Positions 15,840 through 55,515 of a DNA stretch of 64,000 nt are shown piece after piece (the stretch's first letter is position 1; each line of letters opens with the position of its first letter). Both the position numbers and the translations under genes were made by a program. Source of the DNA: Amycolatopsis sp. WQ 127309 (lineage in GTDB: Bacteria > Actinomycetota > Actinomycetes > Mycobacteriales > Pseudonocardiaceae); contig NZ_CP095481.1 of assembly GCF_023023025.1 (NCBI RefSeq), positions 3,782,001-3,846,000 of the forward strand. The letters run 5' to 3'. The notes beneath the pieces were generated by a model. That model did not search any database. It worked only from the letters and a program-made list of their open reading frames with translations, and was not told where the DNA came from.

Positions 15840-15898
15840 AAAGCCGTGAAGGCCTCCTTACCGGCTCTTATGGCCGGGAAGGAGGCCTTCGCGGCTTT
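15840..15898. terminator. Long interrupted hairpin after the rhamnosidase gene
   Basis: The left arm AAAGCCG/GAAGGCCTCCTT/CCGG (15840-15864) pairs with CCGG/AAGGAGGCCTTC/CGGCTTT (15874-15898) with two mismatches and a 9-nt loop. It begins 15 bp after the stop. Confidence 0.75.
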
Positions 15899-17536: not shown

Positions 17537-17669
17537 GAACCCGTAACTCGCGTGACCGAGCCCGGAACTCGCGTGATCAGACCCGGAACTCGCGTGATTG
17601 AGGCCGGAACTCGCGAGTTCCGGCCTCAATCACGCTGATTACGTGCTCAATCACGCGAGATACGGGTTA
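17537..17669. repeat. Symmetric array of 21-bp units with perfect 44-bp palindrome
   Basis: Forward 21-bp units start at 17541, 17562 and 17583 (each CCGKAACTCGCGTGA plus six variable bases). The core CCGGAACTCGCGAGTTCCGG at 17604-17623 follows, then inverted material through about 17670. GCGTGATTGAGG before the core and CCTCAATCACGC after it extend it to a perfect 44-bp palindrome (17592-17635). The outer arms (AACCCGTAACTCGCGTGA versus the inverted AACCCGTATCTCGCGTGA) also match. It fills the convergent gap and supplies the TAA of the minus-strand gene. It probably acts as a bidirectional terminator or a multi-site protein target. Confidence 0.9.
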
Positions 17670-19007
17670 CTTCAGGGCCGTGACGGTGTCGCCGCGTTCT
17701 TCCAGCAGGACCGGGCCGGCCGTGCCCAGGCGGACCGGGCCCGTGTAGCCGCGGCGGTCGACGCCCACCGTGCGGATCGTGGAGCCGTCGTTCTCGTTCA
17801 GCACCGCCAAGCCGCCCTTGATCGGGACGACCAGCTGGCCCGCGAACGTCACGCCCGGGCCCATCGCGCTGCCCAGCGTCCAGCGCGGGGACAGGTCGTC
17901 GCGGGAGAGGGCCAGCACCTTCGAGCCGCTGAACCAGTAGACGTTCGCCGCGGTCTGGGACGTCTGCTCGACGCCGCCCTGCGGGTCCGCGGCCAGGTCG
18001 GCCGGCGGGACGTCCAAGGGGTACGCCGCGCGCTGGGAGCCGTCGCCGTTGTAGATCACCAGGAGCTTCTGGTCCGGCAGGACCACCGCCGCCAGGTCGC
18101 CCGACATCGCGATCACGCGCGCCCGCTTGCCCGCCAGCACCGAGCTGAACGCCACTTGGGGCTCGTCGTCCTTCTCCGGCGCCGCCTTGTAGACGCTCAG
18201 GCGGTCCGCCGGGTCACCCGGGCAGCGCTCGATGACGCCGACCTTGCCCGACGCCGCCGCGACCGTGCCGTACGTGCAGCCGGTGCGCGGCTGCTTGCCC
18301 GCGTTGACCAGCGCCGGGACCTGGCCGTACTCGGCGCTCTGCACCAGGTCGTCGCGCCAGGTGTCGAGCAGCTTCTTGCCGGTGGTGGTCACGTGCGAGC
18401 CGTCGCTGACCAGCCGGGTGCCCAGCTCGGCGTTGCCGTTGCGCTGGGCGGTGATCCGGCCGGTGCCCGGGTCGAGCTGCGTGACCTCGCTGCAGTTCTC
18501 GGTCTTGTGGTAGACGGCGTTGACCCGCCCCCACGTCTCGTTGAGCGTGCACAACGGCAGGTCACGCGTGTAGTGCCAGCGGATCTGCCCGGTCAGCGGG
18601 TCGCGGGCGGCGACCTCGCCGCCGTCCGCCGTGACGACGGTGTCGCCGGTGGCCACCGGGACCGGCGTCGCGCCGCTGCGGGCGCTCCAGATCTCGGCCA
18701 GCGAACCGGGCACCGTGTTCGGCGCCGCGGGCAGCGGCGACGGCGGGTCGGCCTCGGTCCGGTCGGTGCCTTCGCTGTCGCTGGTCGCGCCGACGACCAG
18801 CGCGACCGCGACGACGACCACCGCGATCACCGCGGCGAGCACCCGGTCCCGGCCGCGGTTCCAAGGCGAACGACGGGCCTTGACCCGCGGCGCGGGTGGA
18901 GCAGGTTCGACGTCGTCGAGGACGTCCTCGGAGCCCGGAACGGCTTCCGAAGGCTGCTCCGGTTCTTCCTCGGGCACGGAAGAAGCAGCCTTGTCCTCGT
19001 CGCTCAC
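17667..19007 (-). CDS. Membrane-anchored PQQ-like beta-propeller protein
   Basis: A 446-aa protein. An acidic, Pro-rich cytoplasmic N-terminus (1-45) and a basic stop (RSPWNRGRDR) precede one TM helix (about 56-76), then an extracytoplasmic eight-bladed-propeller-like domain with repeats such as VTADGGEVAARDPLTGQIRWHY and FSGSKVLALSRDDLSPRW. It matches the position and type of the Ala/Val-rich Rv3212 protein beside rhlE in M. tuberculosis (from memory). GTG start at 19007. Function unknown; such propellers commonly scaffold envelope proteins. Its TAA lies in the 21-bp repeat array. Confidence 0.8.
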   Translation of the reverse strand: MSDEDKAASSVPEEEPEQPSEAVPGSEDVLDDVEPAPPAPRVKARRSPWNRGRDRVLAAVIAVVVVAVALVVGATSDSEGTDRTEADPPSPLPAAPNTVPGSLAEIWSARSGATPVPVATGDTVVTADGGEVAARDPLTGQIRWHYTRDLPLCTLNETWGRVNAVYHKTENCSEVTQLDPGTGRITAQRNGNAELGTRLVSDGSHVTTTGKKLLDTWRDDLVQSAEYGQVPALVNAGKQPRTGCTYGTVAAASGKVGVIERCPGDPADRLSVYKAAPEKDDEPQVAFSSVLAGKRARVIAMSGDLAAVVLPDQKLLVIYNGDGSQRAAYPLDVPPADLAADPQGGVEQTSQTAANVYWFSGSKVLALSRDDLSPRWTLGSAMGPGVTFAGQLVVPIKGGLAVLNENDGSTIRTVGVDRRGYTGPVRLGTAGPVLLEERGDTVTALK

Positions 19008-55100: not shown

Positions 55101-55363
55101 TGGACGCCGTTTTCTGGAATCCCGACGGCTATTGGGAAGTGGTCGACTGGAAGACGGGCTCGGTCCCGCCGAAGTCCCGGCAGGCGGTGCTGTCGGTCCA
55201 GCTGGCGGCCTACCGGATGGCCTGGGCGGCGCTGAAGAACGTCCCAGTGGAGCAGGTCCGCGCGGCGTTCCACTACGTCCGAGCCAACCACACGATCCGC
55301 CCGGCCGACCTCCTGGACGCCGAAGGCATCCGAAGCCTGCTCCGCAACCTCCCCGAGTCGTGA
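52124..55363 (+). CDS. adnB: AdnB subunit of the AdnAB helicase-nuclease
   Basis: A 1079-aa motor-nuclease subunit. Walker A VAGAGAGKTETM (about 42), LTFTRKAARQLGERVRARLR, motif II LLDEYQDTGHAQR (about 288), VGDPAQAIYGWRGAS, LTSFRNP, motif V/VI LTVHSAKGLEWEVVAVP and RRLCYVALTRSE, then a RecB-like nuclease with RGTEFHSWLER, LRGRMDAVFWN and WEVVDWKTGS (about 1005). In the characterised mycobacterial enzyme, AdnB provides the main translocating motor. GTGA overlap with adnA ensures paired synthesis. Confidence 0.94.
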   Translation: MSPLVIANTVEPAELADALGLHRPTPEQATVIAAPVEPSLVVAGAGAGKTETMAARVVWLVANGIVSPDRVLGLTFTRKAARQLGERVRARLRRLAGSGLLDRLDPSGGLRSTVVAGEPTVLTYHAYAGRLLSEHGLRLPVQPGVRLLSETSSWQLAHRVVSTWDNELDTDRVPPTVTADVLALAGELGEHLVSTEELAEYTSWMCQVIENAPRAKGQRAALPQKLTEIMAAQHFRLALLPLVEAYHRRKRNEGALDFADQMSLAAQLASEYPSVVRGERERFGSVLLDEYQDTGHAQRVLLRALFGGVENPPMPVTAVGDPAQAIYGWRGASAANLPRFTTDFPRFDGERLVPARDFGLLTSFRNPPEILDLANAIAEPLRARGLGVERLRAREGAGPADIACALLPDVRAEREWVADALARRWYAVQEQTGKPPTAAVLVRRRADMAPIAAELRARGLPVEVVGLGGLLDEPEVADLVSTLRVLADPLSGSAAARLLTGARWRLAAADVAALWRRAGELSSPEKSDGPELVVERVEQAGLIDAIDEPGSPERYSEEGYKRIRRVGWELAALRRRLDQSLPELVADVERTLLLDVESLARPGSAGRAHLDAFAEVVTDYAETAPTATLLSFVDYLNTAAHAEDGLTPGEVEVVPDRVQVLTVHSAKGLEWEVVAVPHLVQDVFPGRRRSSSWLRTATSLPAALRGDSQDLPELRIADGYDRKEVQEGLELHEAGFVEREQSEERRLCYVALTRSEHALIVSGHWWNESSSRAKGPSEFLTEMAGVIRESGVGQLGDWAPEPGADDENPLVSDSRKARWPIDPLADRRTGVQGGVDLVSEALSASSDEEASEEDDPDGWLTDTDVLLEEWARKDDQIKRVPLPSRLSVSQLVALAEDSAQLATDLRRPLPMAPNSFARRGTEFHSWLERRFGGDQLIEIDDLPGAADFAEIPDPGLEELQTQFDKSEWAARVPHAVEITFSADVEGITLRGRMDAVFWNPDGYWEVVDWKTGSVPPKSRQAVLSVQLAAYRMAWAALKNVPVEQVRAAFHYVRANHTIRPADLLDAEGIRSLLRNLPES

Positions 55364-55369
55364 CGGAAA

Positions 55370-55515
55370 CCGTAACCCGCGTGATCAGAGCCGTAACTCG
55401 CGTGATCAAAGCCGGAACCAACGTGATTGGAGCCGTAACTCGCGAGTTACGGCTCCGATCACGCGGGATACGGGCCCAATCACGTGAGTTCCGGCTCGAA
55501 ACACGCGGGTTACGC
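55370..55515. repeat. Symmetric array of 21-bp units around a palindrome (second copy)
   Basis: Three forward 21-bp units start at 55370, 55391 and 55412. The 20-bp palindrome CCGTAACTCGCGAGTTACGG is at 55433-55452. Three inverted 21-bp units start at 55453, 55474 and 55495. Every unit resembles CCGKAACYCGCGTGAT plus five variable bases. The array fills the convergent gap between adnB and the DoxX-like gene, and its last unit contains that gene's TAA (55510-55512). It is the same family and the same arrangement as 17537-17669. Confidence 0.92.

Follow-up and report, generated by a model that had tools for sequence, protein, structure and literature searches.

Introduction

REP sequences and BIMEs are dispersed extragenic palindromic repeats which, according to the part of PMC3733652 available to us, lie mostly in convergent or unidirectional spacers downstream of genes. 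Prokaryotic satellites have been catalogued by Subirana and Messeguer (PMC6749651), and the accessible part of that account has a table in which Amycolatopsis mediterranei appears with, on our reading of its row, 23 satellites. Among intrinsic terminators, those of Streptomyces are characterised as long, stable and U-poor in the available excerpt of PMC12207403, and those of Bacillus cereus show compensatory change, as far as the excerpt of PMC5381666 goes.

Here we describe arrays of a 21-bp unit in the genome of Amycolatopsis sp. WQ 127309 (one contig of 11.13 Mb), starting from one array in a 64,000-nucleotide stretch of contig NZ_CP095481.1, positions 3,782,001-3,846,000 (the window). Like REP elements, BIMEs and REPINs, in so far as the consulted part of the source describes them, the arrays are dispersed, extragenic and enriched in convergent spacers and downstream of genes, with one of them inside an open reading frame. 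They differ from REP elements and REPINs in being found without RAYT, in having a unit that is not a self-contained hairpin of 20-40 bp, in their fixed 21-bp tandem phasing and in a unit class that differs at the same sites between relatives. With the satellites of PMC6749651 they share the character of dispersed intergenic tandem repeats; the 21-bp family, inverted symmetry and gene-end placement go unmentioned in the part of that account available. A literature search, whose coverage mostly excludes subscription papers, gave no description of this 21-bp repeat among the matches listed. The array core TCRCGYGA resembles the parS core, but the arrays differ from palindromic centromere-type sites of this sort in being 21-bp tandem repeats found at the ends of dozens of genes. 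Because the RAYT test failed and both a U-tract and arm covariation were missing, we file the arrays under dispersed extragenic repeats and not under REP.

Results

The array between two convergent genes in the window

The stop codons of the two convergent genes (TGA on the plus strand, TTA as read for the minus-strand gene) are separated by a spacer of 131 bp, all of which is taken up by three plus-strand units, a 20-bp palindromic core and two inverted units (Table 1), as the initial annotation of this DNA had proposed. That annotation also had the units running towards the core and then reappearing inverted. This was exact for the left arm, which has no mismatches, and the right arm was found to be far more degenerate than claimed. 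The loopless 44-bp palindrome was confirmed, and it cannot be extended further. A perfect palindrome of this length belongs to the upper tail of the family: at least 42 bp are reached in 5 of 32 core-centred arrays, and 22 of the 32 have 12 bp or less. The TAA of the minus-strand gene had been placed within the last unit, which was incorrect, the triplet (17667-17669) being 1 bp outside it.

Table 1. Features of the window; coordinates count from its first nucleotide.
Feature	Position	Strand	Remarks
Left-edge gene, 227 aa	16852..17535	+	No Pfam match
Unit 1 (CCGTAACTCGCGTGA)	17541..17555	+	0 mismatches; 5 bp past the TGA of the plus-strand gene
Unit 2 (CCGGAACTCGCGTGA)	17562..17576	+	0 mismatches
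Unit 3 (CCGGAACTCGCGTGA)	17583..17597	+	0 mismatches
Perfect palindrome, loopless	17592..17635		44 bp, maximal
Palindromic core CCGGAACTCGCGAGTTCCGG	17604..17623		20 bp; formed by two head-on units that overlap, offset 5 bp
Degenerate inverted unit	17630..17644	-	4 mismatches
Inverted outer unit (CCGTATCTCGCGTGA)	17651..17665	-	1 mismatch; 1 bp separates it from the minus-strand TAA
Right-edge gene	17667..18842	-	391 aa (codon-usage caller) or 446 aa (longest ORF)
Second array	55370..55515		3 units, core at 55433-55452, 3 inverted units

The window holds four copies of AACTCGCGTG against 0.32 expected from shuffles, and no Rfam family matched within it at the gathering score. The right-edge gene matched PQQ_2 at 26.7 bits, short of the curated cut-off (27.6), and had a match in all 80 genomes of the genus. 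The second array follows the same plan as the first and is likewise flanked by convergent genes, which end at 55363 (plus strand) and 55510 (minus strand). Gene starts and ends were taken from a purpose-written codon-usage caller and not from annotation, and this caller missed at least one ORF.

A dispersed family with an exact 21-bp period

The repeating unit consists of CCGKAACTCGCGTGA plus 6 bp, and it builds at least 56 arrays in the 11.1-Mb genome. Allowing one mismatch, CCGNAACTCGCGTGA gave 187 matches genome-wide and its reversed control 7, and blastn with the 133 bp at 17537-17669 gave 110 matches. The 56 arrays, each of at least two units, come from the window, 50 stretches around matches and 10 from other places (1.23 Mb in all, with some overlap), and the figure is a lower bound since only these chosen stretches were covered. 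No array was found in the 10 stretches taken elsewhere, nor, by the criterion used, in two of the 50 around matches (L072, L082). The suggestion of an element family has thus been borne out, with at least 54 arrays beyond the two of the window; had these two been the only copies, the suggestion would have been refuted.

Units point inwards on both sides of a core in 36 of the 56 arrays (hereafter symmetric); one array has them pointing outwards, one is mixed and 18 have a single orientation. The period is exact, as first noted in the window: among 278 spacings between units of the same orientation we counted 21 bp (259), 42 bp (13), 41 bp (4) and 62 bp (2), so that 272 of the 278 are 21 or 42. 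The 21-letter unit recurs every two turns of the helix. We counted 442 substitutions in the 15-mers of the 310 non-core units and 592 in all 374 units. As a separate observation, the six off-register spacings (41 and 62) are always one base short and never one long.

Arrays lie at the 3' ends of genes

The 52 spacers that hold arrays comprise 29 convergent, 21 tandem and one divergent, together with one at a contig start beside an rRNA operon; the 965 other junctions comprise 144 convergent, 651 tandem and 170 divergent. Enrichment between convergent genes, the check that the initial annotation had called for, was clear (29/51 spacers against 144/965 junctions; odds ratio 7.5, p 3e-11). The sole divergent case (at 4986463) turned out to be within an ORF that the gene caller had missed. 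The position at gene ends was also upheld, with arrays abutting stop codons. All 22 tandem arrays are closer to the 3' end of the upstream gene, and 29 of the 53 arrays with a neighbouring 3' end have it within 10 bp, a number reached by none of 2000 random placements within the same spacers (mean 18.3, maximum 26). In two rRNA operons the 5S gene is followed by an array. Among named Amycolatopsis loci, 49 placed arrays divide into 36 convergent, 13 tandem and no divergent ones, against a background of 62, 251 and 102; these come from 65 loci selected by an exact three-unit pattern, with 15 skipped at locus ends and one within a called gene, and the caller was the one trained on the WQ 127309 genome.

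The median distance to the stop codon is 1 bp for the 36 symmetric arrays and 85 bp for single-orientation arrays (15 of 18 measurable; p 7e-6). At ten ends of arrays other than the one at 17541-17665, the stop codon occupies unit positions 4-6, as TAA in nine cases and as TGA in one. T occupies position 4 in 24 of 31 stop-touching ends, 13 of 29 far ends and 82 of 169 internal units; compared with internal units, the p values are 0.003 for stop-touching ends, 0.84 for far ends and 0.098 for all ends. We considered this T as a mark for end recognition and rejected it, as only stop-touching ends differ from internal units, which is better explained by the stop codon being supplied there. One array lies inside an ORF of 939 aa (L097, 8063-10882, minus strand), where it would be translated into a heptad repeat of the type NHASSGL; 21 bp corresponds to seven codons and the frame is open, and the ORF has no Pfam match.

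Gene-end placement could be merely where insertions are tolerated. On one such account the arrays are selfish repeats of the REP or MITE kind, spread by some enzyme and surviving where they do no harm, between stop codons and off promoters, with no function for the host. The avoidance of divergent spacers speaks for this account. It is harder to reconcile with the strict polarity of the units, and with near-invariant unit positions and an almost complete lack of insertions and deletions, which is unlike neutral decay. We consider it less likely than not; evidence on turnover and mobility that bears on it is given below.

Predicted hairpins in symmetric arrays, without arm covariation

The window array is predicted to fold into a hairpin in both directions (z -11.5 and -10.3; about -80 kcal/mol). 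Strong folding of the plus strand (z < -3, 40 shuffles each) was seen in 35 of 36 symmetric arrays and in 2 of 18 with a single orientation. No T-tract, the counterpart of a U-tract, was found after the stem in the window array, for which this was examined. In a set of 30 species compared at the window spacer, 15 keep strong lag-21 periodicity by manual reading, and 8 of these 15 are without a strong hairpin, one of them (G023) being truncated by a contig end.

If the two arms were held together by base pairing in RNA, they should resemble each other within an array. In 32 arrays the identity between arms, for the first unit outwards, was 0.720 within and 0.717 between arrays, and 2062 of 5000 permutations gave a value as high; for other segments the numbers were 592, 2755 and 370 of 5000. 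The test is diluted because any plus unit can pair with any minus unit. Pairwise unit identity gave a compatible picture, with 0.78-0.80 for units of the same arm, 0.72 (0.718) for units of different arrays and 0.714 for units of opposite arms. Coevolution of the arms driven by the hairpin was therefore dropped as unsupported by either test. Since units of the same arm are alike and those of opposite arms no more so than units of different arrays, the arms probably grow separately by local duplication.

These data bear on the proposal, made in the initial annotation, of a bidirectional terminator, which stands as far as the hairpin on both strands is concerned and not as regards a U-tract (in the window array) or arm covariation. 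Like intrinsic terminators, the window array gives a stable hairpin on both strands directly after both stops; unlike them, it has no U-tract, its family shows no covariation of arms, and many arrays and species are without a hairpin. Should the RNA hairpin nevertheless be what is selected and the DNA repeats be incidental, one would understand why symmetric arrays are flush with stops, and the U-poor stems of Streptomyces, as described in the excerpt of PMC12207403, allow for a terminator without U. Against this stand the 18 of 56 arrays with a single orientation, only two of which fold with z < -3, the species that keep the period without the hairpin, and arms that are no more complementary within than between arrays. 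We think it unlikely that the arrays are simply bidirectional intrinsic terminators. Ordinary hairpin terminators adjoin some arrays, so the arrays are unneeded at those sites.

Uneven conservation of the unit

The units of the WQ 127309 genome have a recognition-like consensus, CCGnnnCyCrCGTGA. Positions 2, 3, 7, 9 and 11-14 are near-invariant (95-100%), and positions 1, 4-6, 8, 10 and 16-21 are conserved at 52-82%, figures that for positions 1-15 are biased by detection with a 15-mer. For positions 9-15, conservation within arrays is about the same as between them. Taken together, the conservation and covariation data point to DNA recognition at two-turn spacing as the constraint that all arrays share, the hairpin appearing to be a property of the symmetric form that abuts stop codons.

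Plain tandem duplication can also give exact periods, and the likeness of units within an arm counts against a reading based on phased binding. Minisatellites produced by replication slippage, their sequence unselected, would account for that likeness, and a 21-bp repeat has the property of preserving reading frames. They would not account for at least 56 dispersed arrays sharing one unit class, for strict placement and polarity, or for a core about equally conserved between arrays, and we consider this explanation very improbable.

Unit classes and turnover among close relatives

A pair of TCACGCGA separated by 13 nucleotides (TCACGCGA-N13-TCACGCGA) was present in 37 of 80 genus genomes with up to 148 matches (G038 had a single one); the control pair gave none in those 37 genomes and two matches in one array-free genome of the genus. 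Outside the genus there was no clear signal, with 4 of 310 family genomes (13 matches) against 4 of 310 for the reversed control (5 matches). Two further classes, D (ACGCGARCCGAC twice) and C (ACGCGTGTCGTC twice), were found in 19 and 30 of the 80 genus genomes with no matches for the controls. The union of the three classes covers 39 of 80 genomes, G070 and G079 being added to the TCACGCGA set, and 41 have none of the three classes searched.

The closest relative, G066, has 96% identity in a neighbouring protein. Its counterpart of the window spacer reads TGACGAACCGGTTA, with 8 bp between the stops and no array; the stop codons of the two genes and the bases beside them are intact. In the spacers of the second window array and of 4270626, G066 does carry arrays, with GGGTCGGYTCGCGTACC-type units and nearly the same edges. 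By manual reading, 12 array spacers of WQ 127309 have a counterpart in G066, of which 3 are empty and 9 hold an array; of these nine, classed by eye, 5 differ clearly in class and 4 are shared or drifted. This comparison dropped coding-looking lag-21 regions (block positions 150209, 298703 and 299503) and position 4343691, with a match for one flank only. Unit sequence thus differs between near relatives, and spacing and gene-end position are kept. Class counts were 123 A/B-type, 7 D and 1 C in WQ 127309 and 18, 52 and 18 in G066, with only C (41) in G079; the contrast between the first two rests on these genome-wide counts, as most WQ 127309 stretches were chosen by class-A matches, which biases a comparison of unit heads between the two genomes.

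On a tree of the neighbouring gene, WQ 127309 and G066 are sisters at the base of a clade of 27 species, many other members of which carry arrays, and array-free lineages are interspersed among array-bearing ones. On this tree, genome-wide presence takes 4 changes and presence at the window locus takes 8. Noncoding lag-21 regions numbered 1 in 160 kb of G025 and 0 in 120 kb of G031, against 13 in WQ 127309 and 9 in G066 (400 kb). As no remnants were seen in the array-free G025 and G031, repeated gain is somewhat favoured.

The empty site and the search for a mobiliser

The clean empty site in G066 resembles that of a MITE, and together with patchy presence it fits the selfish account and the REP-like mobility suggested initially. 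The Y1_Tnp domain (PF01797) of RAYT and IS200/IS605-type enzymes was matched in none of the 80 genus genomes at E 0.001, and the same search was positive in 5 of 14 named controls, so RAYT was rejected as mobiliser for the genus. No target duplication can be told at AACC/GGTT, and the enzyme search covered Y1_Tnp alone. REPIN palindromes of 20-40 bp have a GTAG or CGTC tag at one end; on visual inspection, the ends of the arrays are CCGTAA or CCGTCA.

A proposed model of phased binding at gene ends

Our leading interpretation, held tentatively and with a confidence a little short of even, is that the arrays are fast-evolving, phased, putative protein-binding sites which form a boundary at 3' ends and, in symmetric arrays, add a hairpin without a U-tract. 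The 21-bp unit would be a DNA recognition site placed every two helical turns. With this spacing, copies of a putative sequence-specific protein could line up next to each other along a single face of the DNA. Where units face inwards on a palindromic core, the array directly adjoins the stop codons of convergent genes, and a transcript entering from either side is predicted to fold into the U-less hairpin. The likely effect would be a two-way boundary, at which transcription is arrested or ended and the 3' ends of both genes are protected. Arrays would reach new gene ends, their arms lengthening by local duplication of the unit, and unit sequence would turn over genome-wide as period and place persist. 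The nucleoid-protein array offered in the initial annotation agrees with this in part: exact phasing, uneven conservation and class turnover favour it, and no such protein was found. Observations that speak against this interpretation include the ordinary terminators beside some arrays, the 41 genomes of the genus without the three classes and the array inside the 939-aa ORF.

We also entertain, as a speculation that is probably wrong, that a host DNA-binding protein and its phased sites coevolve fast across the genome, the recognition sequence being swapped at the same gene ends with two-turn spacing kept; the dispersed 21-bp TCRCGYGA arrays in unrelated phyla would belong to the same type of system, through horizontal spread or repeated origin. 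If so, it would be a bacterial counterpart of the turnover of satellites and centromeres or of recombination hotspots.

Amycolatopsis is a genus of antibiotic producers. If the arrays are boundaries, they represent a two-way insulator of new design that could be used in engineering. If protein-bound, they would be a natural experiment on how a regulator changes within one genus together with its dozens of sites, and if selfish, they would point to palindromic repeats being spread in some way that needs no RAYT. Near relatives, in which orthologous spacers are empty, class A or class D, offer a means of testing each of the three readings.

Similar arrays elsewhere and other repeat families

A pattern scan of public genomes gave at least 65 Amycolatopsis loci, A. 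keratiniphila and A. rifamycinica being among the species, and at least 15 scattered others (80 listed of at least 120 stretches). Among the matches listed, the 15 non-Amycolatopsis loci are 21-bp arrays by construction of the search pattern, and a degenerate two-unit pattern was present in all 15 of these genomes, again by construction, with no control matches. In at least four (Cellulosimicrobium, both Odoribacteraceae and an Acidobacteriota genome) there are places on several contigs. Linker identity was 0.77-1.0 in 17 of 18 such loci, as plain tandem repeats would give; in L380 (Odoribacteraceae) the octamer is kept every 21 bp and the linkers are only 0.55 alike. Having been picked by pattern, these loci serve as leads; they do not show a common origin. 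An origin from plasmids or phages was rejected, blastn giving no match in either, and viral contigs had no exact three-unit match. E. coli genomes gave no match either, a result to which we attach little weight.

Five loci (L380, L272, L251, L263 and L374) are TCRCGYGA-core 21-bp arrays in Bacteroidota, a cyanobacterium and Cellulosimicrobium, and at L251 two different 21-bp arrays adjoin each other. Other repeats were also noticed. Positions 15841-15890 of the window are a copy of another dispersed hairpin family (AAAGCCGTGAAGGCCTCCTTACCGGC...), 12-mers of which occur in 8-9 of 42 convergent spacers of at least 20 bp in a 400-kb block of the WQ 127309 genome. In the array-free G025 (L221-L228) and G031 (L235-L240), convergent spacers and some of the tandem ones hold different repeated palindromes, for example CCCCAATGTGGCGTT... 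repeated every 30 bp and hairpins of TGAATGACTCATTCA, though part of the lag-30 regions appear to be coding.
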